Source: a virus
Length of the DNA: 24,805 nt
IMG/VR virus record: IMGVR_UViG_3300044641_007443
Coordinates: 1-24,805 of that record
Strand: one strand, 5' to 3'
Part shown: positions 4,300 through 18,751 of the stretch, piece by piece
Layout of the letters: each line of letters begins with the position of its first letter
Position numbering within the stretch: position 1 is the first letter of the stretch
Program-made: the position numbers and the translations under genes
Notes under the pieces: model-generated
Databases searched by the model: none
The model's input: only the letters and a program-made list of their open reading frames with translations
Told to the model about the DNA's origin: nothing

Positions 4300-4755
4300 T
4301 CACGAGCCTAGGTCTATGACCAGCTCGACGCTTCCTGCCGTTGCCACCGCCTCAGGCTTGCTCTGCTCCAGCACCAGCCGTGCTGCCTCAAGCCGCACGC
4401 GCTCGCTTCGTGCCTCGTCCAGCAGCACCTCTGTCCTGCACAGGGCCTTTGACCTCAGGACTCGAAGCTGCGTCTCCTGCATCTCGGCGAGAAGGTCACG
4501 CGCCTCAGGCTTGGCGAGCAGCCGACTCAACGCCCCTTCCCCGATCCCCGCTTCTGCTGCCGCATCCCTCTGCGTCAGTCCTCGTTTCGCTATCAGTTCC
4601 AGCGCCCTGTAATTGGCGTCGCCTATGGCCACGACGTTGGCCCTGTCGGCTGCGTTCACGCCGCGCATTCCTTGCGCTTTCCCCTTGATCCTCACCACGC
4701 GCCTCTTGGGCTGCGGCATCGGTTCTGGGTCGATCACATCGGCATCTGACGGCAT
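4300..4755 (-). CDS. Probable terminase small subunit (HTH protein, 151 aa)
   Basis: The 151-aa protein has a basic N-terminus (PKRRVVRIKGKAQG), a helix-turn-helix-like segment LTQRDAAAEAGIGEGALSRL at about residues 59-78, a long charged helix that could drive ring assembly, and a C-terminus ending SVELVIDLGS. DNA-binding HTH, oligomerisation helices and a short hydrophobic IDL-type tail are typical of small terminases, which recognise the packaging site and regulate TerL. It is the first gene of the minus-strand late block. Three small genes separate it from terL, more than usual. The ribosome site is GGAGG before ATG 4755. A transcriptional regulator is the alternative. Confidence 0.65.
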   Translation of the reverse strand: MPSDADVIDPEPMPQPKRRVVRIKGKAQGMRGVNAADRANVVAIGDANYRALELIAKRGLTQRDAAAEAGIGEGALSRLLAKPEARDLLAEMQETQLRVLRSKALCRTEVLLDEARSERVRLEAARLVLEQSKPEAVATAGSVELVIDLGS

Positions 4756-4773
4756 CTGCGGCCTCCGCTCTCG

Positions 4774-4803
4774 CCCCTCCCCCTGCCCCCTCCCCTACGC
4801 CCC
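4774..4803 (-). other. G-quadruplex-prone leader upstream of terS
   Basis: On the minus strand this reads as five G-runs of 4-5 bases separated by loops of only 1-4 bases (plus-strand C-runs at 4774-4777, 4779-4783, 4786-4790, 4792-4795, 4800-4803). It lies between the candidate late promoter and the terS ribosome site, so it would be in the 5' leader of the late mRNA. Confidence 0.5.
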
Positions 4804-4821
4804 TGCGAAATCGCCTGTCAA

Positions 4822-4837
4822 GTGGCAATAATGCCAC
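4822..4837. promoter_or_regulatory. 16-bp palindrome, possible regulator site
   Basis: GTGGCA-ATAA-TGCCAC is a perfect inverted repeat with 6-bp arms. It sits just downstream of the candidate terS promoter on the minus strand. It differs from the TGCA-type operator motif, so it may bind a second regulator. Confidence 0.4.
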
Positions 4838-4855
4838 CTGTCTTTGCAGGCGCTT

Positions 4856-4869
4856 CTGCGGCATTGCAG
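4856..4869. promoter_or_regulatory. Degenerate copy of the 14-bp operator motif
   Basis: CTGCGGCATTGCAG matches CTGCA-N4-TGCAG at 9 of 10 arm positions. It overlaps the -10 hexamer of the minus-strand promoter candidate at 4863-4891, where a bound repressor would block late transcription in a lysogen. Confidence 0.4.
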
Positions 4870-4891
4870 GACCACATCCTTGACCTGTCAA
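4863..4891 (-). promoter_or_regulatory. Candidate late promoter driving terS
   Basis: On the minus strand a perfect TTGACA (-35, 4891-4886) is followed after 17 bases by TGCAAT (-10 candidate, 4868-4863, 4 of 6 consensus). A second TTGACAGG occurs at 4821-4814. The first -35 is half of a TTGAC-CT-GTCAA palindrome at 4880-4891. The transcript would run into terS about 100 bases later. Confidence 0.4.
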
Positions 4892-5457
4892 CCATTACGC
4901 CTCCGACGCGCACGGGCGATTCGGCTTCGCCGACCGGGCTCTCGGGCTTCGCCCCGAGCCGCCTTCGGCGTCTCGGCCCTTCGGGCTTCGAACCCTATCG
5001 CGCTTCTTGGTTGGCGCTGACGCGCCCGAGGTGAGGGGCGCGAAAGAGGCGCCCCTCCCATTTTGCTGGGGAACCACCACCCCACCCGCGCAAGTGTAAC
5101 GGGGGAGTCCCCTCCCACGTCGTCAAGGAGGGTCGCTGCGTTGCGTCCAGCCGCCAGGTCACCGCGGCGAGACGCGCCCCCGGTTGGCACGAAATGCTTC
5201 GCATTTCGCCCTTCGGGTGCACCGAGCGGGACCACCTCCACGCGCTCATCGCAAGGCTTCGCCTCGCGCTGATCGCATGGAGGCGGCCCTCCGGTGCATG
5301 CCACCGCCCTCGCTTCGCTGCGGGTCCTTGACAACGCGGGCCCCTCCCCGTTGCCCCGATGCAGTTGGGGCGATGACCCCCCAGCAGCGGCGCTAGTAAG
5401 GCCCAGCGTTGGTTCATTGGGCGGTTGCTGACCGCTCTTCACAGAGGAGATTTGCAC
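4892..5457. other. Gene-free region with a cluster of TTC-loop hairpins
   Basis: No credible gene is seen here. It holds many short perfect inverted repeats with a TTC or TTCG loop: 4921-4933, 4960-4970, 4976-4986, 5191-5207 (7-bp arms), 5209-5217 and 5254-5264, plus an imperfect one around 4942-4958. Other hairpins are at 5034-5056 (8-bp arms AGGGGCGC, followed by TTTT at 5061-5064), 5293-5305 and 5421-5435. The region separates the divergent late and early transcription units, so origin, packaging-site or transcription-insulating roles are possible. Confidence 0.5.
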
Positions 5458-6579
5458 ATGACTTCGAAGATCCACGTTGATCTGAACTCCAATCGCGTCG
5501 GCGAGACCTACACGATCCAGCCGGGTCGCGCCTACGTCGAGGTCGCTGACGGCGCGCTGCCTGAGGCGGTTTTCGAGCGCATCGTGCCGGTCAAGTACGA
5601 CCGGCCGGTGGGCGACTACACGCCGCGCAGCGAGTGGGCGGCGTCCCGCGAGGCGCATAAGCACCGCCAGCGCCTCATCACCCGCGAGTACGCGAACGAG
5701 GTCACCGACCCCGACGCGCTCGCGGACAGCACCGTCGGCGTCGCGAACACCTTCCGCGACGCCATGCACCTCCTCGACGAGGGGTGCGTGAGCAAGCGGA
5801 TGCAGCGCAACATCCTCGACGCGGTCTGCTCCGCCATACAGCGGCAGCTCAACCGCACCGAGGCGGCCATGGCCCGCGAGACGCAGAACGCGTCGGACCC
5901 CGGCGCGCTTCCGCCCGAGCTGGAGAGCGTCGAGCAGTCGCGCATCTCCGACGCCGTCGCGGAACACGCGGCCGACATCGCCGCGCTGCGGCGCGCCCTA
6001 GACGGCGCGACCGACGCCTACTCGGAGATCGTTGGAGAGCCGTGGGTTCCGGCCTCGCAGACGCAGCGCGTCTACCACCCGGCCCTCGCGCTCGCCACGG
6101 AGATCTCGCTCGGCAACGTGCGCCCCGCGGTCCCCGAGGCCAAGGGGTTTCGCGTGGTCGTCGTCGGCTCGCCCGACGCCCACGACCGCCAGCTCGTCAC
6201 CGACTGGCTCGACCGGGCGCGGACCAAGTACGGAGACCGGCTCTGGCTCTACACCGGCGACCGCGCCGCGGGCGTCGACGGAACCGTGGCCGATTGGGCG
6301 CGCAAGAACCGCGTCGCCATCCGACAGTTCGGACTCGACTTCAACCGCCACGGCAAGGACGCGGGCTTCACCCGCAACAGGGTGATCGTGGCGCAGAACC
6401 CGAACGCCGTGCTGGCGTTCGGCGGCAAGGCACAGGTCGGCGATCTCGTCGGCCGTGCCATCCGCGAAGGCATCCCGACCTTCGCCCCCGTCCCGCCGCA
6501 GGGCTGGACGGTCGGTGACGACCTCCGCCCGGTGCCCCAGGCGGCACCGTCGCCGGACGCGGACAGCACCGCGCCCTGA
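5458..6579 (+). CDS. SLOG-fold (DUF2493/YspA-like) protein with unique N-terminal region
   Basis: I start at ATG 5458 (373 aa) because AGAGGAGA lies just upstream; an in-frame start at 5425 has no such site. The C-terminal part, about residues 240-350, reads FRVVVVGSPDAHDR, then LYTGDRAAGVDGTVADWA, then FNRHGKDAGFTRNRVI, then AVLAFGGKAQVGDLVGRA. This is the order of the DUF2493/YspA branch of the SLOG nucleotide-binding superfamily (Rossmann-like, Gly-rich and RN motifs). The N-terminal 230 residues are charged and helical and not recognised. Known SLOG proteins bind nucleotides or NAD-derived signals; the ligand here is unknown. The gene stands alone, closed by a strong terminator. Confidence 0.8.
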   Translation: MTSKIHVDLNSNRVGETYTIQPGRAYVEVADGALPEAVFERIVPVKYDRPVGDYTPRSEWAASREAHKHRQRLITREYANEVTDPDALADSTVGVANTFRDAMHLLDEGCVSKRMQRNILDAVCSAIQRQLNRTEAAMARETQNASDPGALPPELESVEQSRISDAVAEHAADIAALRRALDGATDAYSEIVGEPWVPASQTQRVYHPALALATEISLGNVRPAVPEAKGFRVVVVGSPDAHDRQLVTDWLDRARTKYGDRLWLYTGDRAAGVDGTVADWARKNRVAIRQFGLDFNRHGKDAGFTRNRVIVAQNPNAVLAFGGKAQVGDLVGRAIREGIPTFAPVPPQGWTVGDDLRPVPQAAPSPDADSTAP

Positions 6580-6590
6580 CCTGACACCTC

Positions 6591-6636
6591 GAGCTGGCGG
6601 CAGCCGTCCCGCGACGGCGCCGCCAGCTCTTTTTTT
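6591..6636 (+). terminator. Strong Rho-independent terminator
   Basis: Perfect 11-bp arms (GAGCTGGCGGC at 6591-6601, GCCGCCAGCTC at 6619-6629) enclose a second perfect 6-bp stem (GCCGTC/GACGGC) with a CCGC loop, followed by seven Ts at 6630-6636. It ends the transcript of the SLOG gene. Confidence 0.9.
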
Positions 6637-6785
6637 CCACCGTCGCCGCGGCGGCACGGGTCTCGGGGAGGCTCTCGCCTCCCCTATCCCCCTCCGCCCC
6701 GGTCCCCCTCCACCGCCTGCGCCCCCGCCCCCAAGACCAGGACTGAGCCCTGCATGCAGCGGCTCAAAGGCCCTGCTTTTTCTGT
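6637..6785. other. C-rich intergenic stretch with hairpin
   Basis: No gene is seen. A perfect hairpin (GGGGAGG 6665-6671, CCTCCCC 6678-6684) is followed by repeated C-runs up to 6732, giving the minus strand quadruplex potential. A GAGCC/GGCTC inverted repeat near 6748-6768 followed by a T-run at 6777-6781 may be a weak terminator. Confidence 0.4.
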
Positions 6786-6805
6786 TTGATCGATTGTTGA
6801 TCGAT
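6786..6805. repeat. Tandem 9-bp direct repeat TTGATCGAT
   Basis: TTGATCGAT occurs at 6786-6794 and again at 6797-6805 (11-bp period, about one helical turn), each containing the palindrome ATCGAT. It is about 10 bases upstream of the ribosome site of the 67-aa gene, a typical place for a paired regulator site. Confidence 0.45.
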
Positions 6806-6825
6806 CTCACTCAGAGGAGACGCTC

Positions 6826-7029
6826 ATGCGCATGATTCGACTTCGGTTTCGCTGGTTCGCCAGCTACCTCCGCGACGAGTATCGACGCCGCAAGTGCGGC
6901 GTTCGCGTCCGGTTCATCTGGACGGTCTTGATGATCGCGAACGCCATGTCCTCGTGGGCGATGCGTCGCGTCATCACCGTGAAGACTATCCCGCCCAGCG
7001 AGGCGGAATGGACGATCCCCGAGCGATAA
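6826..7029 (+). CDS. Small basic, possibly membrane-associated protein (67 aa)
   Basis: The 67-aa product starts at ATG 6826, seven bases after AGAGGAGA, the same strong leader used by the SLOG and SSB genes. The N-terminal half is very basic (MRMIRLRFRWF, YRRRKCG). The middle, FIWTVLMIANAMSSWAM, is hydrophobic enough for one membrane segment or a buried amphipathic helix. No family is recognised. It is alone between two gene-free stretches. The ribosome site and clean ATG support translation; the function is unknown. Confidence 0.55.
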   Translation: MRMIRLRFRWFASYLRDEYRRRKCGVRVRFIWTVLMIANAMSSWAMRRVITVKTIPPSEAEWTIPER

Positions 7030-7279
7030 GGCCCAGCGGGTCTTTCTGAGGTACGAGCGATACGCAGGCTTCGCCAAGCTCGTTGCAGCGTCCTGCGCTG
7101 CTGCAACCCTCAAGGCTCTCGTTCAATCTCGAGGAGACGCATCCATGTAGCATGCTGACGACTCGCCGCAGATCGACGCAAGACGATCGCACCAGCTGCC
7201 TGGCGCAGGCAGTCGACGCCTCCCCGTTGTGGATGGAACAGGGTCAGCCCCGCAGCCTATGCCTCGGGCATGCCTTGGG
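7030..7279 (+). other. Structured leader-like stretch with orphan ribosome site and start-stop (ATG-TAG)
   Basis: No normal gene is seen. A stem-loop (GTTGCAGC 7082-7089, GCTGCAAC 7100-7107) is followed by GAGGAGACGC at 7132-7141, nearly the leader of the 67-aa gene, then ATG at 7145-7147 immediately followed by TAG at 7148-7150. Another small hairpin (ATGCC/GGCAT) is at 7259-7271. The stretch ends in a strong terminator, so it could be a small RNA, an attenuated leader or a decayed copy of the 67-aa gene start. TAAGGCCCAGCG at 7027-7038 also occurs at 5397-5408. Confidence 0.4.
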
Positions 7280-7324
7280 AACGCCGGCGCTTTGGATGGA
7301 CGCATCCAAGGCCCGGCGTTTTTT
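7280..7324 (+). terminator. Rho-independent terminator upstream of SSB-1
   Basis: A long, slightly bulged stem pairs AACGCCGG (from 7280) with CCGGCGTT (to 7320) and TTTGGATG with CATCCAA, with a GACG loop, followed by TTTTTT at 7319-7324. A separate perfect hairpin, GGACCC/GGGTCC at 7329-7345, lies between this terminator and the SSB ribosome site. Confidence 0.85.
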
Positions 7325-7366
7325 CATTGGACCCATTCCGGGTCCCCCACAGAGAGGAGACAGCAG

Positions 7367-7804
7367 ATGTTCAACGTCAACCGAGTCGAGATCATCGGCA
7401 ATCTCGGGCGCGACCCCGAGATCCGCACCGCCCAGTCCGGCAAGTCGTTCGCGACGCTCAGCGTCGCCACGACGGAGCGCTGGACCAGCAACGGCCAGCC
7501 CGTCGAGCGCACCGACTGGCACCGCATCACCGTCCTGTCGCAAGGCCTCGTCAAGATCCTCCAGGCCCACGGCCGCAAGGGTCAGCTCGTGCGCGTGAGC
7601 GGTAAGCTGCAGCACAGCAAGTACGAGAAGGACGGCCTTACGCGCTACGCCACCGACGTCGTTGTCGGCAACAATGGCGAGTTCGCCATCCTGTCGGCCA
7701 AGCGCGCCGACGCCACGATGGCGCCCGCCGAGGATGCCGATGCGCCGGCGCCCGAGGCGCCAACCACGCAGCCGACGTGGAAGGGCGACGACGTCCCCTT
7801 CTGA
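7367..7804 (+). CDS. ssb: Single-stranded DNA-binding protein, copy 1
   Basis: The 145-aa protein has an OB fold typical of bacterial/phage SSB: VNRVEIIGNLGRDPEIRTAQ at the start, FATLSVATTERW, DWHRITVLSQ, KGQLVRVSGKLQ and YEKDGLTRYATDVVV. A Pro/Ala-rich acidic linker follows and the tip ends DDVPF, which recruits partner proteins in known SSBs. It coats ssDNA during replication and recombination. I chose ATG 7367, after AGAGGAGACAGCAG, rather than longer in-frame starts that would run through the terminator. It is monocistronic, with terminators on both sides. A second SSB is at 15656-16057. Confidence 0.95.
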   Translation: MFNVNRVEIIGNLGRDPEIRTAQSGKSFATLSVATTERWTSNGQPVERTDWHRITVLSQGLVKILQAHGRKGQLVRVSGKLQHSKYEKDGLTRYATDVVVGNNGEFAILSAKRADATMAPAEDADAPAPEAPTTQPTWKGDDVPF

Positions 7805-7811
7805 CCACCGA

Positions 7812-7853
7812 GCAGGGTCTTCCGAGCAATTCGGAAGGCCCTGCTTTCCTTTC
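7812..7853 (+). terminator. Rho-independent terminator after SSB-1
   Basis: GCAGGG...CCCTGC (7812-7817 and 7839-7844) encloses a second stem CTTCCGA/TCGGAAG with a short loop, followed by TTTCCTTTC. It begins 8 bases after the SSB-1 stop codon. Confidence 0.85.
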
Positions 7854-7856
7854 GTT

Positions 7857-7870
7857 CTGCAATTTTGCAG
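7857..7870. promoter_or_regulatory. 14-bp operator-like palindrome before the 7883 operon
   Basis: CTGCA-ATTT-TGCAG is a perfect-arm copy of the motif found twice in the repressor/Cro intergenic region. It lies directly between the SSB-1 terminator and the ribosome site (GATAGGAGG) of the next operon. Confidence 0.6.
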
Positions 7871-7882
7871 GATAGGAGGCCC

Positions 7883-8029
7883 ATGTGGAACTTCTGGAAC
7901 TTCATTCGGATGCTGTCGCGAGTGCTTCCACCGATCGTGGCGCTGCTCGTGACGTTCCTCGACCTGGCGAGAGCCCTGCAAACGCTGCGAGCTTGGCGTC
8001 GTGGCTCGAACTGGCAACGCCGGAGATGA
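7883..8029 (+). CDS. Hidden 48-aa membrane peptide
   Basis: ATG at 7883 follows a very good ribosome site, ATAGGAGGCCC. The 48-residue product starts MWNFWNFIRMLSRV, has one clear membrane segment (LPPIVALLVTFLDLARAL, about residues 15-32) and a basic C-terminus (RAWRRGSNWQRRR). This favours an N-out or tail-in topology. Its TGA overlaps the ATG of the next gene as ATGA (8026-8029), so the two are translationally coupled. Competing GTG starts in the next gene's frame would overlap this peptide. It is below usual ORF-length cutoffs, so it is easily missed. Function unknown; it is the first gene of an operon carrying a SLOG-like protein. Confidence 0.65.
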   Translation: MWNFWNFIRMLSRVLPPIVALLVTFLDLARALQTLRAWRRGSNWQRRR

Positions 8030-8373
8030 AGATCCGTTTCGTTGCCGTCGTGGCTGGCGGCGATCTTGGCATCACCAAGGAGCGTGTCGCTGACTGCTTC
8101 TCGGCACTCAAGCGCAAGCACAAGTCCATCGCCATCTGGCACGCAGGGTCCGGCGAAGAAGAGAGCCCTGCACGGAAACTCGTCCGCACATGGGCGGGAC
8201 GCAACAAAGTGCCGTGGGTTCCCTTTGGCGAACGCTACGAGGCCTTGATGAACTCCGCCAAGGGTCGCTTCAGCGCAGGCCACAAGATCGGCTTCATCAT
8301 TCTTCCAACCAACAGCCCAACGCGCATTCGAGACGCTGCGAAAAGCGCCGGGCTTGTCGCATGGGAGGTGTAG
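8026..8373 (+). CDS. Second SLOG/DUF2493-like small protein (115 aa)
   Basis: Starting at ATG 8026, coupled to the 48-aa peptide, the 115-aa protein reads MKIRFVAVVAGGDLGITKER, then IAIWHAGSGEEESPARKLV, then KVPWVPFGERYEALMNSAKG, then IGFIILPTNSPTRIRDAAKSAG. The pattern (N-terminal strand, HAGSG loop, ARKLV helix, AG.. followed by a strand and a PT.SPTRIRDAA helix) resembles a minimal DUF2493/YspA SLOG domain, like the C-terminal domain of the 5458 gene but diverged. Family assignment is an inference. SLOG domains are often nucleotide sensors. It sits next to membrane proteins on both sides. Confidence 0.6.
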   Translation: MKIRFVAVVAGGDLGITKERVADCFSALKRKHKSIAIWHAGSGEEESPARKLVRTWAGRNKVPWVPFGERYEALMNSAKGRFSAGHKIGFIILPTNSPTRIRDAAKSAGLVAWEV

Positions 8374-8688
8374 GTGTTCTACGCCCTTGTCTTTCTCGTC
8401 AAGCTCATACGAGCCCTTCCAGGAATCCTCCAGGCCCTCACCAAACAGGTCCCACGCATCCAGATAGCCATCAAGGACCACGGACCGCTCATCGGATTCA
8501 TCATCATCTGGTTCCTTGTCTCGGTCTTTTGCGTCGTCGTGGTCGCGATGGCAGTCGCGACTGCGTGGGCAACCCTGTCTTCGCTCTTTCCAATGATCGT
8601 TATTGCCGTCCTGGTGATGGCTTTTGCCTTTGGCTTGCTGAAGGCCCTGCTGTGGTTTCGTGGCCGATCAGGAGGCGGCCAGACATGA
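8374..8688 (+). CDS. Integral membrane protein (104 aa)
   Basis: This begins with GTG at 8374, directly after the preceding TAG, with GGGAGG upstream. The 104-aa product has a hydrophobic N-terminus (MFYALVFLVKLIRALPGIL) and two strong membrane segments, about residues 39-66 (IGFIIIWFLVSVFCVVVVAM) and 70-94 (FPMIVIAVLVMAFAFGLL). It ends in a short basic tail. No family is recognised. The next gene overlaps by ATGA. With the 48-aa peptide it brackets the SLOG-like gene with membrane proteins. A role in superinfection exclusion or membrane signalling is possible but not shown. Confidence 0.75.
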   Translation: MFYALVFLVKLIRALPGILQALTKQVPRIQIAIKDHGPLIGFIIIWFLVSVFCVVVVAMAVATAWATLSSLFPMIVIAVLVMAFAFGLLKALLWFRGRSGGGQT

Positions 8689-8960
8689 CCAAGATCATCC
8701 TGAACACCGGACCGCTCATCGACCACATCCGCAAGATGCCGGTCGACAAGCTTGGCTTGCTCGCCGAGATCCTCAACGACGCCGTTGGTGAGGCGCGTTT
8801 CTACGAAGTCATCTGCCTCGAGAAGAGCGAGGAAGGCGATGCCTTCTACTTCTCAGAGCGGGCCACCGTTGCTCGCGAGCTGCGCGACCTCATCGTGAAG
8901 ATGAACGCCAGCTTCCTCTACCTCATCGAGCCCCAGAAGAAGGAGCAACTCCATGCCTGA
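8685..8960 (+). CDS. Hypothetical protein (91 aa)
   Basis: ATG 8685 overlaps the upstream stop (ATGA) and has GGAGGCGG just before it. The 91-aa acidic, helical product (MTKIILNTGPLIDHIRKMPV, KLGLLAEILNDAVGEARFYE, RATVARELRDLIVKMN) has no membrane segment. No family is recognised. It overlaps the DUF932 gene by 8 bases, so it is part of the same coupled series. A longer in-frame extension upstream is only open frame through the other genes. Confidence 0.7.
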   Translation: MTKIILNTGPLIDHIRKMPVDKLGLLAEILNDAVGEARFYEVICLEKSEEGDAFYFSERATVARELRDLIVKMNASFLYLIEPQKKEQLHA

Positions 8961-9810
8961 TGGCGCTTTCTCGTCGATGATGGACCGTCACGGGTTCATC
9001 CCCATCAACCACGAAACCCCGAAGTGGTTTCCCGTCAGCGCCGGCGAAGTCTTCGACGCCAACGGCTCGCCCATCGCCGGCTATCAGCGCATCTGGCGCG
9101 AAGACAGCGGCGACACGATCGCCCTGCACACCTCGGACTACCACCTCGTCCCATACCAGGAGAACTTCTCCCGCTTCGACAACGCCATCATGCGCTCGGG
9201 CCTCGACACCACCGATATGCGCGTGGCGACGGACATGAGCCACAATGGCGGCCGCGTCTTCCGCCAGTACTTGTTCCCCGCGCACACGAAGGATGTCGGA
9301 CAGGGCGATCCCGTCGCGCTGCGCATCATCATGTTCGACAGCTACGACGGGTCGTACTCGTTCCGCGGCACCGCTGGCTTCTTCCGGTTCGTCTGCGCCA
9401 ACACTTGCGTCATCGGCGACACGGCGATCGACGTCCGCGCCAAGCACACCTCGAACTTCGGCGAGCGTTCGTCGCGACTGATCGAGGCCGTCGTCAAGGC
9501 CGCGGACTCGTTCAACGGCTACGTCGAGAACATGCGGCATTGGTCGACCGTGCGCCTGTCGCTCGGCAATGCCCGCGAGCTGCTCAACCTGATGCCGCAG
9601 GGCAACGACTCCCTGCGCGACACGCTGTTCGCCGACTACGCGACCAAGCACGGCGAGAACGGCACCGCATGGGACCTCTACAACGTCCTCACCAGCTGGG
9701 CCACGCACTCCAACGCCCGCGCCAACCGCGCCCAGGTGCGCGCCCAACGCGAGGACCGTGTCCTCGCCCTCACCAACAAGGCTGCATGGAAGGAGCTCTG
9801 CAATGCCTGA
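8953..9810 (+). CDS. DUF932 family phage/plasmid protein
   Basis: The 285-aa protein resembles the DUF932 family found on phages and plasmids. Recognisable segments are YHLVPYQENFSRFDNAI, the central strand-rich block RIIMFDSYDGSYSFRGTAGF, FRFVCANTCVIGDTAIDVRA with the invariant-looking CAN.CV, the KHTSN segment, and the late helical WDLYNVLTSWATH. Members are often encoded beside ParB-like or recombination genes, as here (the next gene is ParB-like, overlapping by 8 bases). No biochemical activity is established that I can cite. The start at ATG 8953 is fixed by overlap with the preceding stop and an AGAAGGAG site. Confidence 0.85.
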   Translation: MPDGAFSSMMDRHGFIPINHETPKWFPVSAGEVFDANGSPIAGYQRIWREDSGDTIALHTSDYHLVPYQENFSRFDNAIMRSGLDTTDMRVATDMSHNGGRVFRQYLFPAHTKDVGQGDPVALRIIMFDSYDGSYSFRGTAGFFRFVCANTCVIGDTAIDVRAKHTSNFGERSSRLIEAVVKAADSFNGYVENMRHWSTVRLSLGNARELLNLMPQGNDSLRDTLFADYATKHGENGTAWDLYNVLTSWATHSNARANRAQVRAQREDRVLALTNKAAWKELCNA

Positions 9811-11431
9811 CACCGTCGACAACATCGTCGCCAAGCCCATCGCCACCGACGACCAGCTGACCTACCTGCAGGTCGCCGAGCTGGTGCCGTGGGCTGGCAA
9901 CGTCCGGTCCTCGCGCAGCGACATGGACGTCGCGGCCATGGCGCTCTCCATCAAGAACGTCGGCCTCCTCAATCCGCTGCTGGTCAAGCGCATCGACAAC
10001 GAGTGGAACGTTGTGGCCGGAGTCACGCGCCTCAAGGCGCTGACCTGGCTCAAGTGGGATCGCGTCCCGTGCGTTGTCCTGCCTGACGGCATGGACGATC
10101 GCTCGCTCTCGGCCGTCAGCCTTGCCGAGAACACCTCGCGCTCGGCGATGTCGCTGGGCGACACGGTGCGCGGCCTGCTGGCGATCTTCGCCAGCGGCGT
10201 CACCGACCTCGGCGAGGCTGCCATCATCCTTGGCCAGCCCCACGAGAACGCCAAGATCGCCGCGCAGCTGACCAGGCTCGTGCCGGATGCGCTGGCGAAG
10301 CTGGAGAAGGGAAAGATCGGGACGGAGTTCGCGCTCGAGCTCTCAAAGCTCTCCGACGGCAAGCAGCGTGGCGTGCTGCGGCGCCTCAAGGACTACTCGA
10401 GCTACAACGACGAGGGGCCGGATGCCCGGATGCTCCGACGCGACATCGCCAAGGAGCGCGTCAATGCCGGCGACGTCGAGTTCACGGAGCAGCAGTTCCT
10501 CGAGGCCGGCGGCACCGTCGTCCGCAACCTGCTTGGCGAGGTCAGCTTCGAGCCCTACTCGCTGGTCATGGAGCTGCAGCGCAAGCGCGGCCAGGAGATC
10601 GCGGAAGCCCTGAAGTCGAAGCACAAGTGGGTCGACTTCTTCGAGAGCTCGGCGTCCAACTCGTACTTCACGACCTACATCTCGGAACCAAACGCCAAGA
10701 ACGACCCCAAGAAGGCGGGCGCCGTCGTGCTTTTGACTCCCGATGCGCGCATCCAGATCAGGACGCCTGTTTTCAGGATCGAGGACCAGAAGGCCAAGGA
10801 GAAGGCGGCCAAGCAGAAGGCGAAGGAAAGGGAGAAGGCCGAGTCCGGTGAGGCCGGCGAAGACGTCTCATCCGGCATTCGCGACATGGCGGCGCAGTAC
10901 CTCGCCGACTACACGCGACAGGCGCTCATCGGACACGTCAACGTGGCGCTTGCCGTTATCCTGTCCAGCAGCTTCCGCGTCTGGCAGCGTCCTACCAACC
11001 TCTTGGCGCCGACGGCGGACATCTTCATGAACACGCCGGGACTCAAGAAGGCACGAGAGACGGTCGAGAAGTTCCAGGAGGACGCCCTAGCCGAGGGGCT
11101 CAGCATCGACAAGCTGCTCGACATGACGCAGGCCGATCTGGGCAAGCTCGTCATCGCCATGGCCCAGAACGTGGTGCACGCCTACAAGCCGGACGACAAG
11201 AACTGCCTTGCCGTTCTCAACGCTTGCGAAGCGTCGCCCATGGACATGAACATGGCGTCGCTGCCAGTCCTCAAGCGGCTCACCAAGGAGCAGCTGGTCG
11301 AGATCGGCAAGCAGGTCGATGTCCAGACCCAGAACAGCGAGCCCAAGGGCGGCCTTGCTCGCCGCATTGAGCTCGCCCTGGAGAAGCGTGGCGGCGGATG
11401 GCAGCCGCCGGGCATCTCCTACAACGGGTAG
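9803..11431 (+). CDS. ParB-like nuclease/CTPase-domain protein
   Basis: The 542-aa product from ATG 9803 (AAGGAG upstream) has an N-terminal ParB/Srx domain: NVRSS, MALSIKNVGLLNPLLV, the GVTR box at 73-76 where ParB has GERR, VPCVVLPD, and the AENTSR box at 108-113. An HTH-like helical region follows. A Lys/Glu-rich charged linker lies at about residues 327-358. The unrecognised C-terminal ~180 residues may dimerise or bind partners. At 542 aa it is longer than typical chromosomal ParB. No ParA lies nearby, so partition by the usual mechanism is unlikely; DNA-binding regulator or nuclease roles are alternatives. It overlaps the repressor gene convergently by 13 bases. Confidence 0.85.
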   Translation: MPDTVDNIVAKPIATDDQLTYLQVAELVPWAGNVRSSRSDMDVAAMALSIKNVGLLNPLLVKRIDNEWNVVAGVTRLKALTWLKWDRVPCVVLPDGMDDRSLSAVSLAENTSRSAMSLGDTVRGLLAIFASGVTDLGEAAIILGQPHENAKIAAQLTRLVPDALAKLEKGKIGTEFALELSKLSDGKQRGVLRRLKDYSSYNDEGPDARMLRRDIAKERVNAGDVEFTEQQFLEAGGTVVRNLLGEVSFEPYSLVMELQRKRGQEIAEALKSKHKWVDFFESSASNSYFTTYISEPNAKNDPKKAGAVVLLTPDARIQIRTPVFRIEDQKAKEKAAKQKAKEREKAESGEAGEDVSSGIRDMAAQYLADYTRQALIGHVNVALAVILSSSFRVWQRPTNLLAPTADIFMNTPGLKKARETVEKFQEDALAEGLSIDKLLDMTQADLGKLVIAMAQNVVHAYKPDDKNCLAVLNACEASPMDMNMASLPVLKRLTKEQLVEIGKQVDVQTQNSEPKGGLARRIELALEKRGGGWQPPGISYNG

Positions 11432-12015
11432 TCCCGATCGACGCGGCGAATGACGCCGCGGACTTCTATCAAGTCGAGCGGCCATGCGTTGGGCTCTCCC
11501 GGCGCCATGCGCCGCTCGACCACGACTGGCGGCATGTAGGCGCCAGCAGACACGCGATCGCCGGTTGAGATGATGACCAGCGAGCCACGCTCAGGCTGTG
11601 CGCTGGGGTCAACAATCAACTGGTCTCCCATGAAGACGCCGGCCGCCTCAAGCACTTCAAGCGTCATTGTCATGGCAACGCATCCAATCGGGATGTCGCC
11701 GCTCACGGTGATGGAGGACCACCTCCGCGATGCAACTAGCTCCCGGACATTCATGTCAAGCAGTTGCTCCATTGGAACGGACGGGATGCGCGCCCCCTGC
11801 GTTGCGGCAACGCCAAAGCTTGGGGCTACACCAGCAATCTTGCTCAAGGCCACGACTGTTCTCGTTGAAGGCCAGGATGTGTCCTTGTGCTTGAGGAAGC
11901 GCGTGATACTGGTCGAGGGGACATTGGCAAGTCTTGCCCAATGCTCGGCCGACCAGTTGTTGCGACGCATCACATCCAGCATCCACCTGCCAATGCTGTC
12001 GCGATCGTTGCTCAT
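11419..12015 (-). CDS. CI-like phage repressor (HTH plus S24/LexA-like C-domain)
   Basis: The 198-aa protein has an N-terminal HTH, about residues 9-62 (WSAEHWARLANVPSTSITRF), and a C-terminal domain shaped like S24/LexA dimerisation domains: AAGVFMGDQLIVDP, GSLVIIS, LIEVRGVIRRVDRDYPL. It should maintain lysogeny by binding the palindromes at 12079-12117. The ribosome site is AAGGAG eight bases before ATG. Odd point: where LexA/CI proteins carry the catalytic Ser (GDSM type) this one has MTMTLEV, and the Lys region reads VSAGAYMP without Lys. Self-cleavage therefore looks impaired. It is transcribed divergently from the Cro-like gene. Confidence 0.9.
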   Translation of the reverse strand: MSNDRDSIGRWMLDVMRRNNWSAEHWARLANVPSTSITRFLKHKDTSWPSTRTVVALSKIAGVAPSFGVAATQGARIPSVPMEQLLDMNVRELVASRRWSSITVSGDIPIGCVAMTMTLEVLEAAGVFMGDQLIVDPSAQPERGSLVIISTGDRVSAGAYMPPVVVERRMAPGEPNAWPLDLIEVRGVIRRVDRDYPL

Positions 12016-12078
12016 GTAAATGCTCCTTCAAAGTGGGGCTATTAACGCGACTCGCGTGCAACGCAATAGCACACATTG

Positions 12079-12092
12079 GTGCAAAAGTGCAG
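12079..12092. promoter_or_regulatory. Operator palindrome O1
   Basis: GTGCA-AAAG-TGCAG matches CTGCA-N4-TGCAG at 9 of 10 arm positions. It lies between the divergent repressor and Cro-like genes, 25 bp from the next copy. A looser GTGC...GCAC inverted repeat lies at about 12056-12073. Confidence 0.65.
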
Positions 12093-12103
12093 CTTGCAAT
12101 AGG

Positions 12104-12117
12104 CTGCATTTTTGCAG
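12104..12117. promoter_or_regulatory. Operator palindrome O2
   Basis: CTGCA-TTTT-TGCAG is a perfect-arm copy of the motif, centred about 19 bases before the Cro-like ATG. The Cro-like gene has no clear ribosome site, so its transcript may be leaderless or start very close to the ATG, within reach of a protein bound here. Confidence 0.65.
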
Positions 12118-12129
12118 TAAACCAATGCC

Positions 12130-12366
12130 ATGTTGTCACATCCCCTCGATCTGCTCGCCACAATGGCAACAGCGCACAACGTCTCTCTCGAGAGCGCCAT
12201 GCGCTCAGCAGGCGTCGCCCGCACCACCTATCAGAGGTGGATGAAGCGGCAGACATCGCCCCGCCACGGGACAGCAGAACGCATCGCCAAGGAGATCCAA
12301 CGCCTTGGGAAGCTACAGCTGCGTAAGAAACCAGCCGCTCTGGCACAAGCTCGTCGCGGCGCTTAG
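12130..12366 (+). CDS. Cro-like HTH regulator (78 aa)
   Basis: The 78-aa basic protein carries an HTH (LATMATAHNVSLESAMRSAG, then VARTTYQRWMKRQTSP) and a Lys/Arg/Ala-rich tail. Its place, first plus-strand gene divergent from the repressor, is that of Cro. It would compete for the same TGCA-type operators to switch to lytic growth. No Shine-Dalgarno sequence is visible before ATG 12130. The next HTH gene begins inside its last 62 bases. Confidence 0.8.
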   Translation: MLSHPLDLLATMATAHNVSLESAMRSAGVARTTYQRWMKRQTSPRHGTAERIAKEIQRLGKLQLRKKPAALAQARRGA

Positions 12367-12748
12367 CGCCGAACGCAAGCGCCAGGGATGGTCACGATGG
12401 GACCTCGAGGACAAGTGCGGCTTCCATCGCGGATCGCTTGCCATGTGGGAGACGTCCTTGCGTCCACCAACGGCATTCAACCTCTGCATCTGGCTGGAGT
12501 TCCTTGGTCGTGAGCTCGAGGTTGTCGGGGCGACGCCAACGGGTGATCACCGCCAGCTCGAGCTTCCACTCGAAGTACAAGTCGCGTCGCACGACGATCG
12601 AAGGCATCACCTTCGCAAGCAAGGGCGAAGCCCTGCGATACGTCGACCTCAAGCGACTCGAGCAAGCGGGACACATCAGGAACCTCCGGCTCCAAGTGGC
12701 ATACCCGCTGGCAGTCAACGGCTTCAAGCTCTGCACCTACGTCGCTGA
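12305..12748 (+). CDS. Second HTH (XRE-type) protein, unusual 3' extension
   Basis: The recognisable part is LWHKLVAALSAERKRQGWSR, DLEDKCGFHRGSLAMWE and FNLCIWLEFLGRELEVVG, an XRE-type HTH of about 80 residues. The only good start is TTG 12305, with AAGGAGA nine bases upstream, inside the Cro-like gene. The frame stays open to 12748, so the last ~65 codons run in another frame under the DUF1064 gene and look like shadow sequence (Arg/His/Pro-rich). Either the overlap is genuine, or a frameshift joins HTH to DUF1064, or a base is missing. Probable role: early regulator. Confidence 0.6.
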   Translation: MGSYSCVRNQPLWHKLVAALSAERKRQGWSRWDLEDKCGFHRGSLAMWETSLRPPTAFNLCIWLEFLGRELEVVGATPTGDHRQLELPLEVQVASHDDRRHHLRKQGRSPAIRRPQATRASGTHQEPPAPSGIPAGSQRLQALHLRR

Positions 12749-12890
12749 CTTCGTCTACGAAGAAGCCGGGACGACAATCGTCGAAGACTTCAAGGGCATC
12801 AAGACGGCAATCTTTAGGCTCAAGGCCAAGATGATGAAGGCCCTGCTTGGAATCGAACTGAGAATCACGACTGGGAGAAAGAAGCGATGA
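12543..12890 (+). CDS. DUF1064 family, predicted PD-(D/E)XK nuclease (115 aa)
   Basis: The protein reads HSKYKSRRTTIEGITFASKG, ALRYVDLKRLEQAGHIRNLR, LQVAYPLAVNGFK, TYVADFVYEEAGTTIVEDFK then IFRLKAKMMKALLGIELRI. This closely fits DUF1064, a small phage family with a restriction-endonuclease-like core (Glu in SKGEA, VADF, VED-F-K). Holliday-junction-type or other structure-specific cleavage is the usual proposal. GTG 12543 gives the family's usual length; GTG 12510 with GGAG upstream is an alternative. It is ATGA-coupled to the winged-helix gene. Confidence 0.8.
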   Translation: MITASSSFHSKYKSRRTTIEGITFASKGEALRYVDLKRLEQAGHIRNLRLQVAYPLAVNGFKLCTYVADFVYEEAGTTIVEDFKGIKTAIFRLKAKMMKALLGIELRITTGRKKR

Positions 12891-13333
12891 AGACTGTCGC
12901 CATTCCCATGGGTCTTGTAGGGGACCGCACGTCGACGTCGCTGCACATCCATGTCGCAGCCTTGCTGGCCCTAGAAGCCAGTTCCTACGGCTGGGTGCGC
13001 ATCTCGCAGCGTTCGATCTCCGAGGCAACTGGCGCAAGCCAGCAAGACATCGTGGATGCTCTGCGCATCCTGCGCGACAAGAACTACCTTGCCGTCGACA
13101 AGGACGAAGACGGCATGTTCTATCGGCTCCTCTGGTTTCGCACGACACAACAAGAGGAGCCCAAGAAGTATCGCTGGGTCTACGTTCGCCGCCTTGGCGA
13201 CAAAGGCAAAGGCGGATACTTGCGCATCAACGGCGGCCCAGACGATCGCGACGAGCTGAAGAACTGGCTGGTCGGCATGGGCTACGACCTGCTTCGGCTT
13301 CACGACGAGCCTCCGCAAAAGGCCCCGTCGTGA
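12887..13333 (+). CDS. Winged-helix DNA-binding protein (148 aa)
   Basis: The 148-aa product begins MKTVAIPMGLVGD and has a winged-helix segment at about residues 20-80 (VAALLALEASSYGWVRISQR, SISEATGASQQDIVDALRIL, KNYLAVDKDEDG), then a basic strand-rich tail. It resembles small phage replication or transcription regulators. No other replication initiator is recognisable in the window, so that role is possible, but it is inference. ATG 12887 overlaps the DUF1064 stop. The last bases of the gene form one arm of a terminator hairpin. Confidence 0.7.
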   Translation: MKTVAIPMGLVGDRTSTSLHIHVAALLALEASSYGWVRISQRSISEATGASQQDIVDALRILRDKNYLAVDKDEDGMFYRLLWFRTTQQEEPKKYRWVYVRRLGDKGKGGYLRINGGPDDRDELKNWLVGMGYDLLRLHDEPPQKAPS

Positions 13334-13341
13334 TTTTTTTT
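13301..13341 (+). terminator. Terminator overlapping the 3' end of the winged-helix gene
   Basis: CACGACG (13301-13307) pairs with CGTCGTG (13326-13332), with an inner GCC/GGC stem, followed by eight Ts at 13334-13341. The right arm includes the TG of the TGA stop codon, so the coding end doubles as the terminator. Confidence 0.85.
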
Positions 13342-13351
13342 GCCTTGAGCG

Positions 13352-13365
13352 CTGCAATTTTGCAC
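13352..13365. promoter_or_regulatory. Operator-like palindrome before the recombination operon
   Basis: CTGCA-ATTT-TGCAC matches the 14-bp motif at 9 of 10 arm positions, with the same centre (ATTT) as the copy at 7857-7870. As there, it lies between a terminator and the ribosome site (AGGAGGGA) of the next operon. Confidence 0.6.
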
Positions 13366-13385
13366 CTTCAACAGGAGGGAACCTG

Positions 13386-14282
13386 ATGGGCTACACGATC
13401 AGCGCAACCGATGCGCGCCGGCTGATGCGCGGCGACGGCATCAATCTCTGGAAGGAGAAGAAGGGACTCGCGACGCCAGAGGACCTGTCTGGCGTTCTGC
13501 GCGTCCAGCTCGGCCTCGTCACCGAAGCCTTCAACTTGTCCTGGTGGCAGCGCAACCACGACAACGAGAAGTTCGGCGTTTCCGCAAACGTGACCTTCGA
13601 CGCGATGCCCGCCTTCACGCCCGATGCCGATCGCCGGCTGAAGGCTGGTGGCATTGGCGGCGTCTGCGAGTACGTCAACACAGACCGCGTCTGGCAGACC
13701 TGCACGCCTGATGGCGTTGTCTGGTGCAAGGAAGCCATCCGCCAACCTCTCGGCCTCATCGAGGCCAAGCACACTCGGCCAATCGGCGATGGCAACGAGC
13801 CATACTCTGTCATCCAGGCGAACTACTGGCAGTTCGTCCACCAGATGATGGTCACCGGCTTCAAGCAGACCTTCGTCTCGGTGCTCTACGGCAACGACGA
13901 GTGGCGTCCATTCGTCGTGCAGCGCAACGAGGATGACATCGCCACGCTGCTCGGCGCCGAGCTCATGTTCCTGCGCGAGCTCGAAGGCGACACGCCTCCC
14001 GGCATTGTCTGGGACCTTCCAGACGATCGACCGATCCCGGGCGTGCCGACGCGCAAGCTGACCACGGCGGACGTCGAGAGAGCCAACTGGGCCAGCGACT
14101 TCATCGCGGCCGCAAGCGACTTCGTCTTGAACTACGACAGCGACAAGCGGCTCGACGCCGCCAAGAAGGCCCTGCGTGGGTTCTTGCCCGAGGATGCCGT
14201 GAAGATCGAGGCATTCGGGGTCCGCGTGAACCGCACCCAGCGCGGCATCGTCATCAGCCAACTCAAGGAGAAGGCGGCATGA
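13386..14282 (+). CDS. YqaJ-like viral recombinase / exonuclease
   Basis: The 298-aa protein is a PD-(D/E)XK exonuclease of the YqaJ/lambda Exo type. Signatures are LGLVTEAFNLSWW with Glu47, TCTPDGVV with Asp109, LGLIEAKHT with Glu126 and Lys128, and the ANYWQFVHQMMVTG helix at 145-158. It resects dsDNA 5' ends to leave ssDNA for the annealing protein encoded two genes later. Start ATG 13386 follows AGGAGGGA. It opens a long coupled operon running to the integrase, and the next gene overlaps by ATGA. Confidence 0.9.
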   Translation: MGYTISATDARRLMRGDGINLWKEKKGLATPEDLSGVLRVQLGLVTEAFNLSWWQRNHDNEKFGVSANVTFDAMPAFTPDADRRLKAGGIGGVCEYVNTDRVWQTCTPDGVVWCKEAIRQPLGLIEAKHTRPIGDGNEPYSVIQANYWQFVHQMMVTGFKQTFVSVLYGNDEWRPFVVQRNEDDIATLLGAELMFLRELEGDTPPGIVWDLPDDRPIPGVPTRKLTTADVERANWASDFIAAASDFVLNYDSDKRLDAAKKALRGFLPEDAVKIEAFGVRVNRTQRGIVISQLKEKAA

Positions 14283-14674
14283 AGTCCATCGACATCAGCA
14301 TCAAGCAAGCCCACGAGATGGTGGCGCTGCTACGCGACAGCCTGCCCTTCATCAGGGGGGTCAACTTCAACATCAGGTCCGGCGAGAAGACGGACAACCA
14401 GGAGCGATTCTACATCTCGCTGTTTGCCGACCTCGAGGAGGCGTCGCCCTTGTCTGGCGCCACCTACGGCATCCATGGGTCGGGCTACACCGACGAGGGG
14501 ATGGGCAAGATCGTCGCCAGGTTCCGCAGCGACTACCTCCGTGCGCTGGAGGTGATGGTCAACAAGCACATCGGCGAGAACACCATCAACCGACTGCTTC
14601 AGGAGTACGAGGACAAGAACCTCGACTTCATCGACGGCCCCACCGTGTCGGCGCTCGCCAAGGAGGTCGCATGA
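14279..14674 (+). CDS. Hypothetical protein in recombination operon (131 aa)
   Basis: The 131-aa protein (MKSIDISIKQAHEMVALLRD, PFIRGVNFNIRSGEKTDNQE, GIHGSGYTDEGMGKIVARF) is soluble, with mixed alpha/beta character. It is coupled by ATGA to both the exonuclease and the annealing-protein genes. That position suggests an accessory of the recombination pair, but I recognise no family and see no catalytic motif. Confidence 0.75.
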   Translation: MKSIDISIKQAHEMVALLRDSLPFIRGVNFNIRSGEKTDNQERFYISLFADLEEASPLSGATYGIHGSGYTDEGMGKIVARFRSDYLRALEVMVNKHIGENTINRLLQEYEDKNLDFIDGPTVSALAKEVA

Positions 14675-15357: not shown

Positions 15358-15659
15358 TCCAGGTCCAGATCATCCCCGCGGATGGCGACGAGCTTGGGGA
15401 GGAGGCCATGCTCGCTCGCGAATGCGTCGAGACGTCGGTGCGCTTTGCAGCGGTGATGCTCGAGGAGTACCGCAGCCCGGGGCTCGTCATCTACGCGATG
15501 CTCACGTCGATCGCCTGGGTCTCGCGCTTCAAGCGACCCGTCGGCATGAGCGACGAGGAAGCCATCAACGACATCGTTCAAGGGATTCGAGGCGTCTTCC
15601 AGAACGTGGAGATGCGCGACGTCACGGCCAACTACCACTCAGAGGGAGGCAAGGCATGA
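15354..15659 (+). CDS. Hypothetical protein, GTG start (101 aa)
   Basis: It starts with GTG 15354, overlapping the previous stop as GTGA, and ends by overlapping the SSB-2 ATG. The 101-aa acidic helical product (GEEAMLARECVETSVRFAAV, SPGLVIYAMLTSIAWVSRF) has one moderately hydrophobic helix, more likely buried than membrane-spanning. No family is recognised. It belongs by position to the recombination module. Confidence 0.7.
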   Translation: MIQVQIIPADGDELGEEAMLARECVETSVRFAAVMLEEYRSPGLVIYAMLTSIAWVSRFKRPVGMSDEEAINDIVQGIRGVFQNVEMRDVTANYHSEGGKA

Positions 15660-16057: not shown

Positions 16058-16067
16058 GGAGGGTGAC

Positions 16068-16358: not shown

Positions 16359-16591
16359 TGCCTCCGAGGGCCTGGCCGAAGCTGCCAGATCCGCTTTCGA
16401 CGCCGATCGCGTTGCGAGCGGCCGCGAGGGCGCGCATCACGGAAGCCATGCTGCATTCAGAGGATTCATGGGACCGACTGCACCACATGCAGGTCGCCAC
16501 CGAATACGAAAGGAAGGCGGATCTTGCGCAACGCATCATCCAGCAGAACGTCGCTTCTCTCGACGCACGCTCACCCGAACATCCCGAGTGA
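16358..16591 (+). CDS. Hypothetical helical protein (77 aa)
   Basis: The 77-aa product starts at ATG 16358, one base overlapping the previous stop. It is helical and charged (RAAARARITEAMLHSEDSWD, VATEYERKADLAQRIIQQNV). No family is recognised. It may overlap the next gene, whose start is uncertain. Confidence 0.6.
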   Translation: MPPRAWPKLPDPLSTPIALRAAARARITEAMLHSEDSWDRLHHMQVATEYERKADLAQRIIQQNVASLDARSPEHPE

Positions 16592-16610
16592 GTACATCGA
16601 CTTCCTTGTC

Positions 16611-17587: not shown

Positions 17588-18002
17588 CCTGCCACAGCTC
17601 TACACGCTCGATGACGTCGCGAGGTCGATGAAGTTGCGCAAGGACACCATCCTGCGCCACCTGGCCCGCCACGACATCCCGCGGATCGGCAGCGGCCGCG
17701 GCATGCGGTTGACACGCGAGGCCTACGACCTGTTGATTCGCTGCCTATGCTCAAGCTCCTGCCCCCGGGGAAGCGATCGCCCTTCTGGTCCGTCCGCGGA
17801 CGGCACGGAGGACGGTTGCTCGAAGTCAGCACTCGCACGACTGACGCAGGGCTGGCGAAACAGCGGTACCGAGAGCTCCTCAGGACACTCGGCGCCAAGG
17901 AGCCGGGCCCGGCGCACACCGTCGGCTTCGCCGAGGCCGCCCGGGCCTACCTCGCCTTCCGCGACCTTGACGATCGCCAGCGCGCCGACATCCAGCGATT
18001 GA
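17580..18002 (+). CDS. Excisionase-like HTH protein overlapping the integrase start
   Basis: From ATG 17580 the first ~58 residues form a MerR/AlpA-type HTH (LPQLYTLDDVARSMKLRKDT, ILRHLARHDIPRIGSGRGMR, LTREAYDLLI), as in excisionases and directionality factors. The frame then stays open to 18002, giving a Ser/Arg/Pro-rich tail that overlaps the first 85 codons of the integrase in another frame. The tail looks disordered and may be shadow sequence, but no earlier stop exists. Position next to int supports an excisionase role. Confidence 0.65.
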   Translation: MSDLPQLYTLDDVARSMKLRKDTILRHLARHDIPRIGSGRGMRLTREAYDLLIRCLCSSSCPRGSDRPSGPSADGTEDGCSKSALARLTQGWRNSGTESSSGHSAPRSRARRTPSASPRPPGPTSPSATLTIASAPTSSD

Positions 18003-18751
18003 GCCGGGAACTGGGCGACACGCCTTGCGCCCAGGTCACGCAGGCGCAGCTGGTCGATGTCGCCAACCGCCTCTTCCCCGCCGGCAAGGCCAGCAGCAAG
18101 AACCGGCTGGTCATCACCCCGGCCTCGGCCATCCTCCACTACGCCTCCCAGCAGGGCTGGTGCCCATGGCGACGGATCTCCCGGTTCCGGGAGGCCAAGC
18201 CGGTCACCCGAGCCCTCTCCCAGCCAGACGCCCATCGCCTCATGGCGGCCGCGGCCGGCGAGGCCCGCGCCTTGCTCGAGGTGCTATTCGGGACCGGGTT
18301 GAGGATCTCGGACGTCCTTGCCCTGCGCTGGGACCAGATCGACATGGGGAATTGCACTCTGCGGTTGCGAATCGGCAAGACGCAGGAGGACCGGGTCCTG
18401 CCGCTTTCCCCGCTTGCCATGCAGGGCCTTCACAGACTGCCCAGGAAGCCCCAGGAGCGACTTTGGAGCGTCAGGGATAGATGGGCCGCCTACGACATGC
18501 TTTCGCCCGCCAGAGAGCGTTCTGGCGTCGATTTCACCCCCCACATGGCAAGGCACTCGGTCGGCAGCTGGCTCAACGACGCCGGCGCCGGCCTCAAGAC
18601 CATCATGGCGACCCTCGGCCACGCCGATCCCAAGTCCTCCATGCGCTACCAGGACGCCGACGTCGAGACGATCCGGCGGGCATGGGGGCGCGTGGGGGCT
18701 GTGGGGGCGCGTGGGGGAAACCGCGGCTCAAGGCAGAAGGCAAAGGCCTAG
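17747..18751 (+). CDS. int: Tyrosine-family phage integrase
   Basis: The 334-aa protein has all catalytic residues: Arg186 in GTGLRISDVLALRW, Lys211 in GKTQEDR, His266-x-x-Arg269 in TPHMARHS, His292 in TLGHAD and Tyr301 in SSMRYQDAD. The N-terminal ~60 residues form an arm-type-DNA-binding region and residues ~60-140 a core-binding SAM-like domain. It integrates the phage at a tRNA-Thr(GGT) gene, judging by the attP just downstream. Its extreme C-terminal codons are themselves built of GTGGGGG repeats (18682-18717). ATG 17747 is chosen because the protein aligns with integrase N-termini from there. Confidence 0.95.
   Translation: MLKLLPPGKRSPFWSVRGRHGGRLLEVSTRTTDAGLAKQRYRELLRTLGAKEPGPAHTVGFAEAARAYLAFRDLDDRQRADIQRLSRELGDTPCAQVTQAQLVDVANRLFPAGKASSKNRLVITPASAILHYASQQGWCPWRRISRFREAKPVTRALSQPDAHRLMAAAAGEARALLEVLFGTGLRISDVLALRWDQIDMGNCTLRLRIGKTQEDRVLPLSPLAMQGLHRLPRKPQERLWSVRDRWAAYDMLSPARERSGVDFTPHMARHSVGSWLNDAGAGLKTIMATLGHADPKSSMRYQDADVETIRRAWGRVGAVGARGGNRGSRQKAKA
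18682..18717 (+). repeat. Integrase arm-type repeats, left cluster
   Basis: ATGGGGG at 18682, then GTGGGGG at 18692, 18701 and 18711, spaced 9-10 bp in the same orientation, inside the last codons of int. Spacing near one helical turn and placement beside the attP core suggest binding sites for the integrase N-terminal domain. Confidence 0.6.

Follow-up and report, generated by a model that had tools for sequence, protein, structure and literature searches.

Repressor sites are expected to drift apart between related phages. In the OR and OL regions of phage lambda, the cI and cro genes are divergent, the operators overlap the promoters, and the operator is repeated at another early operon. 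The subject of this report is a short palindrome with the core TGCA-N4-TGCA that is repeated in IMGVR_UViG_3300044641_007443, an IMG/VR virus record of 24,805 bp that was analyzed in full and is called the window below. As at lambda OR and OL, the palindrome is found at a divergent cI/cro pair, where it may overlap the promoters, and again before another early operon. It is very probably the lambda-type operator of the phage's Cro/CI switch, with predicted control of cro, a recombination operon, and a third operon that holds a DUF932 gene.

Lambda carries six 17-bp operators (PMC4997575). The same source describes the N15/phiKO2 switch, in which 16-bp operators lie between the repressor gene and cro and further copies precede the repA operon. 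All of these operators have the form T-A-N10-T-A, phiKO2 Cro bound only OR3, and the repressor is without the residues of self-cleaving repressors (PMC4997575). In Cluster A mycobacteriophages, the stoperators are 13-bp, asymmetric sites of up to 30 per genome, and repressor sites drift apart between related phages (PMC6550527).

Four conserved cores in the window

The window looks like a temperate phage by its gene content. The core occurs exactly four times in its 24,805 bp (7858, 12080, 12105, and 13353), compared with 0.57 expected copies, and one of 100 shuffles reached four. All four are intergenic and fall within three gaps totaling 244 bp. They also match the longer form TGCA-N-TTTTGCA exactly (12080 on the minus strand), for which 0.35 copies are expected with one mismatch allowed and none of 100 shuffles reached four. 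The close relative IMGVR_UViG_3300008448_000438 (29,308 bp) was aligned over 19,480 bp of its record (L003; loci are given by L numbers), with 16,414 window bases aligned and 88-97% identity in the aligned blocks. Its whole record holds the same four cores and no others, and both records may be incomplete. Between the two phages, none of the 48 core positions is substituted, compared with 14 of 196 in the rest of the gaps (one-sided Fisher p 0.04).

The first-pass annotation had described the motif as a 14-bp CTGCA-N4-TGCAG. Its coordinates for all listed copies are correct and the motif is real, but only 7857 and 12104 carry it exactly (two copies, 0.05 expected), and the other three listed copies are mismatched. 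One-mismatch copies (12079, 13352, and 4856) are a weak signal, with three found and 1.27 expected, so that the copy at 4856 is left without support of its own. Two of the eight outer bases of the 14-bp form are changed in the close relative and the cores are not, an indication that the core is what matters. Judged by sequence conservation, the defining element is the TGCA-N4-TGCA core within a 16-bp ACTGCA-N4-TGCAGT consensus. Control of late genes, which had been considered possible, is not borne out, as it depends solely on the chance-level copy at 4856, which lies closest to the late genes. A perfect palindrome, GTGGCAATAATGCCAC, is located at 4822-4837 in the gap that separates the small terminase gene from the first early gene. 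Its centre, GCA-ATAA-TGC, is identical to that of some distant operators, and it could be a variant operator.

The placement of the copies agrees with the earlier description. The cores at 12080 and 12105 lie between the CI-like gene (11419-12015, minus strand) and the cro-like gene (12130-12366, plus strand). The copies at 7857 and 13352 share one setting, with a foldable terminator before the site and a ribosome-binding-like sequence after it. If the terminators work, the operons behind them need their own promoter, or read-through, at the operator. A foldable terminator is found at the same place in L005, and TTTTTTTTGCCT precedes the site in L005, L006, L103, and L107; the tested stretches before the site in L107 and L103 gave no clear terminator fold. 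Upstream of the DUF932 gene in related phages, the site is exact in L103 (6845) and has one mismatch in L107 (6248).

Linkage of the site to cro and YqaJ in distant phages

Distant phages were reached through a DUF932 alignment and then through alignments of the YqaJ-type exonuclease. In alignment A4, the exonucleases share 27-52% identity with the L077 exonuclease, and the GC content of the cluster phages extends from about 36 to 63%. A scan of 107 loci shows the core upstream of YqaJ in many of them, ten of which were examined gene by gene. When 174 YqaJ loci were clustered at 70% identity, 38 clusters resulted, and a Cro-like protein model built from seven seeds, the window's included, found Cro in 16 of these. 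The test of Cro against the site is based on 34 clusters with at least 1.5 kb upstream (L130, L113, L036, and L082 were dropped). Of the 16 clusters with Cro, 12 have the core in the 700 bp ahead of YqaJ, and of the 18 without Cro, none does (Fisher p 3e-6); within 100 bp, the counts are 8/16 and 0/18.

The site is concentrated at these two genes. In the 16 Cro-bearing representatives, the upstream windows of the two genes (120 bp each; 3,840 bp in total) contain 19 cores, compared with 15 in the other 202,330 bp, several of which are 272-548 bp upstream of YqaJ. Equal frequency in coding DNA, which the first-pass annotation had named as speaking against its proposal, is therefore not found, the enrichment in these upstream windows being about 65-fold in the Cro-bearing clusters. 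In the 22 representatives without Cro, the two cores in the YqaJ windows (2,640 bp) both belong to L130, and four more are found in the remaining 219,874 bp.

The signal is lost when the spacing of the half sites is changed. In the windows of Cro-bearing clusters, 19 TGCA cores have spacer 4, compared with 6 for all of the spacers 0-3 and 5-12; for CTGCA-N-TGCAG, spacer 4 gives 11 and the other spacers none. Over 30 dereplicated loci, CTGCA-N4-TGCAG is found 12 times, compared with 13 for the other 20 spacers (0-20) combined. A motif-first scan of IMG/VR with the strict pattern TTGAC-N4-ACTGCA-N4-TGCAGTA returned three records, all with a Cro-like gene that starts 10-12 bp after the match. One of them is the known L077 phage. 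The other two represent one phage that is outside the seeds of the Cro model and carries YqaJ on the opposite strand with a site of its own; there (L208, 5153-5506 on the reverse complement of the locus), cro and YqaJ diverge and an operator lies on either side.

The loci L205 and L206, from a Novosphingobium metagenome-assembled genome that was already part of the set, have Cro and sites before both cro and YqaJ. Among 15 YqaJ loci from bacterial genomes (seven of one family, eight of one phylum), none has Cro and none has an upstream site; one holds a single core 2.6 kb downstream. A pattern search in 385 genomes of one bacterial class gave no match. In annotated phages, tblastn found no match for the window CI, the window YqaJ, or the L153 Cro. 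The L077 YqaJ matched five records, of which only Pelagibacter phage Hodr reached a query coverage of at least 80%. The part of this phage that was examined, 12,777 of 34,238 bp, contains no Cro and no site.

Several observations weigh against the linkage. The p-values are too small, because the clusters share ancestry. In four of the 16 Cro-bearing clusters (L026, L135, L172, and L147), the 700 bp upstream of YqaJ contain no exact site. L147 carries an exact copy immediately 5′ of cro and a one-mismatch site 5′ of YqaJ, and L172 has a one-mismatch site 5′ of YqaJ; L026 and L135 show nothing convincing within the 700 bp. Upstream of cro, one-mismatch sites are found in L160, L153, and L095 and a two-mismatch site in L114, and no site within three mismatches in L026, L172, and L112. 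Clusters without Cro hold six cores in total in 222,514 bp, four of them more than 2.7 kb from YqaJ and two in L130, which was left out of the Fisher table and whose upstream sequence of only about 290 bp is too short to show cro. The bare TGCA core is less sharp over the 30 loci, with 24 copies at spacer 4 and 15 at spacer 5. When the -35 part of the strict pattern was relaxed to TTG, 19 records were found, of which the 16 additional ones had no Cro or YqaJ in the DNA examined (about 1 kb for some); these are best taken as chance matches.

The first-pass reading of a phage-wide repressor regulon is partly supported. Its proposal that one operator links the repressor region with other early operons is borne out: many distant phages have the site before cro and the YqaJ gene or operon, and two related phages have it before DUF932. 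On the present comparison of loci, the factor that tracks the site across phages is the Cro-like gene, with CI homologues in fewer phages.

Candidate binding proteins

The Cro-like protein is predicted by AlphaFold as a four-helix, helix-turn-helix fold with good confidence (mean pLDDT 88.9). Its Pfam matches to HTH_3 and HTH_31 are weak and below the curated cut-off. A point against the operator reading is that the fold matches of the model in the PDB are weak as well (best E 0.35). For the CI-like protein, only the N-terminal part is modeled with confidence, and the model of the C-terminal part is poor. The recognition helices look alike by eye (T-S/N-I-T-R in CI, T-T-x-x-R in Cro), and thus both proteins would be expected to bind, as in lambda. 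By eye, alignment A6 shows no catalytic serine of the usual S24 motif in the S24/UmuD-like part of the window CI, so that this CI may not self-cleave.

As a rival reading, CI alone could be the ligand, and the link to Cro could be the by-product of a cassette that is inherited as a block. The CI homologues with a helix-turn-helix in the window, L103 (with L136), L108, and L077 fit this reading, as does the resemblance of their recognition helices to that of Cro. CI homologues are, however, found in only five groups, and in one of these (L005/L006), the gene has no helix-turn-helix and the sites remain. In L153, L095, L165, L147, L183, and L160, sites are present and the DNA examined yielded no CI homologue with three query proteins, which could miss a diverged CI. 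CI as the sole ligand is thus considered unlikely. The gene at the CI position in L005 (5985-6263, minus strand) and L006 (1852-2130, minus strand) encodes 92 amino acids without a helix-turn-helix next to operators that are still present, and it is a candidate for a CI remnant or a modulator beside Cro.

Operator anatomy and promoter geometry

The anatomy of the operator was derived from a hand-listed set of 29 exact-core sites, three window sites included. Outside the core, A is found at -2 in 20 of the 29 sites, C at -1 in 23, G at +12 in 23, T at +13 in 21, and A at +14 in 19, which gives ACTGCA-N4-TGCAGTA. The conserved positions form a palindrome around four variable loop bases, and the TTTT centre of the window sites is not kept in the listed distant relatives. 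A TTG (-35) starts at -9 to -11 in 16/29 sites and a TA (-10) lies at +13 in 16/29, where the background rate per position is 0.037 for TTG and 0.049 for TA (binomial p 4e-9 and 4e-14, for offsets picked after looking). Both boxes are present at 13 sites, 11 of the 29 having TAnnnT. At the sites with both boxes, the operator occupies the spacer (~17 bp) of a promoter resembling the sigma-70 type, a place classically taken by repressors. L005 and L006 show the same layout with other boxes, TAGACC and TATACT, as read by eye.

In the window, this geometry is best matched before cro. The spacer between the proposed TTGCAA and TAAACC boxes (Table 1) is 18 bp, which would place the start point near the cro ATG and make cro nearly leaderless. 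TTGCAA is itself palindromic and could serve the CI promoter too. A sigma-54 reading of TTGCA was dropped, with GG at the right distance only at 12104 (by eye).

The promoter step has its own weak points. Neither box is found at 10 of the 29 sites. A sigma-70 consensus scan of positions 4500-19000 found no promoter, where shuffles gave 1.7. Of the three listed window sites, 12105 alone has both boxes. At 7858 and 13353, the boxes are absent or weak, and a transcription start placed as in the relatives would fall within the ribosome-binding sequence. The promoter step is supported in the relatives and would apply to the window by inference.

These points bear on a second alternative, in which the two copies behind terminators act like mycobacteriophage stoperators and a bound protein blocks read-in from upstream, with no promoter involved. 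The cores at 7858 and 13353 are squeezed between the terminator and the ribosome-binding sequence with little room for a promoter, they are without the TTG or TA of the relatives, and the negative sigma-70 scan is in line with this view. On the other hand, the site upstream of YqaJ is flanked by recognizable -35 and -10 boxes in many relatives, and the stoperators described in PMC6550527 are asymmetric and numerous, whereas the site here is a palindrome in four copies. A stoperator-like role is regarded as improbable. It is less probable still that the palindrome is an RNA hairpin that controls translation beside the ribosome-binding sequence. The 14-mer does fold as a 5-bp hairpin, and in the RNA of 7803-7882, it helps to pair the ribosome-binding sequence, but 13 of the 29 sites lie between -35 and -10 boxes and thus would not be transcribed from their own promoter, the loop of four bases differs between sites, and one of the copies points toward CI. 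Chance, aided by TGCA being its own reverse complement, could appeal to the mismatches in three of the five copies first listed and to the chance-level copy at 4856, but for the four core sites, it is made very unlikely by the spacer control, the intergenic placement, the motif-first scan, and the fact that distant phages have the site before the same genes.

Proposed mechanism

In the preferred reading of an operator for Cro and CI, a Cro dimer, or probably CI in the lysogen, would bind the 16-bp ACTGCA-N4-TGCAGT, whose two TGCA halves are close to one helical turn apart. The bound protein would exclude RNA polymerase, since the operator fills the -35/-10 spacer in many relatives. In the window, one operator would serve cro and one would face the CI promoter, and the other two would act between a terminator and the next early operon, namely the YqaJ recombination operon (13386) and the stretch of genes that runs from 7883 to DUF932. 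In the lytic cycle, Cro would repress the recombination operon at the same time as its own, and in the lysogen, CI would keep the same set off.

Table 1. Predicted operators, their neighboring signals, and the associated genes in the window
Feature	Position	Strand	Support
Predicted operator core TGCAATTTTGCA between a strong terminator and a short open reading frame from ATG 7883, ahead of the genes leading to DUF932	7858..7869	+	
Predicted operator core TGCACTTTTGCA, CI side, 25 bp from the cro-side operator	12080..12091	-	Conserved in L001
Predicted operator core TGCATTTTTGCA, full CTGCATTTTTGCAG at 12104-12117, upstream of cro	12105..12116	+	Core kept in near relative; same place 5′ of cro in distant phages
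Predicted operator core TGCAATTTTGCA between terminator and YqaJ-type exonuclease gene	13353..13364	+	Terminator-operator order same in L005, L006
Intrinsic terminator just 5′ of the 7858 operator, 17-bp stem	7810..7846	+	
Intrinsic terminator, stem TCACGACG..CGTCGTGA + T8, just 5′ of the 13353 operator	13300..13341	+	-18.8 kcal/mol, z -2.7
TTGCAA, proposed -35 box of the cro promoter	12094..12099	.	Sequence, geometry as in relatives
TAAACC, proposed weak -10 box of cro	12118..12123	+	Sequence; TA at this place in 16/29 sites
cro-like gene, 78 aa, helix-turn-helix, proposed operator-binding protein	12130..12366	+	Domain/profile matches, AlphaFold model
CI-like gene, 198 aa, N-terminal helix-turn-helix and UmuD/S24-like C-terminal part, probable second operator ligand	11419..12015	-	
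YqaJ/RecE-like recombination exonuclease, first gene of the second proposed operon	13386..14282	+	phrog_434, E 9.6e-22
DUF932 gene, third proposed operon	8953..9810	+	PF06067, E 3.2e-26
Integrase	17747..18751		

Other features of the window

The left end of the window carries the small terminase gene and further minus-strand genes, and the early genes are on the plus strand. The divergent CI/Cro pair is at 11419-12366, and a Holliday-junction resolvase (DUF1064) gene is also present in the window. A second helix-turn-helix-like open reading frame (12305-12748) overlaps the ends of cro and of the DUF1064 gene and has a counterpart at 6464-6676 in L005. The stretch 7883-8688 starts with a hydrophobic 48-aa open reading frame that has an ATGA overlap with the next one; a protein beginning MKIRFVAVVAGGD and another hydrophobic protein follow. 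Two genes resembling single-stranded-DNA-binding proteins (7229-7804 and 15422-16057) both match the single such gene of L005 and L006. On the minus strand 3′ of the integrase, at about 18750-18900, the translated sequence resembles a tRNA 3′ end by eye (SELNTRPRPYQG) and could mark an attachment site; no tRNA was detected in the window by ARAGORN.

Comparison with known switches

The comparison suggests a known kind of switch, in which the unusual aspect is the degree of operator conservation across very distant uncultured phages. The titles and abstract openings covered by the literature search, which did not extend to most subscription journals, contain no description of the operator, so that it may have been published elsewhere. 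Should the conservation prove as strong as it looks, it would be contrary to the expected drift of repressor sites between related phages and would make cross-regulation between distant phages conceivable. For a wide range of uncultured phages, the sites offer an operator that can be tested and a regulator candidate, as well as a simple DNA signature for locating switch regions.

A more far-reaching and rather doubtful idea is that of a frozen operator code, in which phages whose exonucleases share 27-52% identity with that of L077, and whose GC content is about 36 to 63%, keep the same Cro operator at cro and YqaJ. At its core, the circuit would then time the recombination genes through Cro alone. 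It would predate the lysogeny switch, act independently of it, and be spared the diversification seen in immunity operators. The idea of a Cro-only timer arises because no CI was found in the DNA examined of several such phages. If a frozen code exists, unrelated co-infecting members could cross-regulate each other.

Among the systems compared, the immB switch of N15/phiKO2 is the nearest, and its regulatory logic is the same. The differences lie in the operator (ACTGCA-N4-TGCAGT here), in the second operon, which here starts with a recombination exonuclease instead of repA, and in the breadth of conservation. Compared with lambda, the window has two sites between CI and cro rather than three, and its further operons have one site each. 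The operator sequence is different as well. With the Cluster A stoperators, the window shares the repetition of one repressor site along the genome, but its sites are palindromic, number four in the window and four in the close relative, and are located at the starts of early operons.

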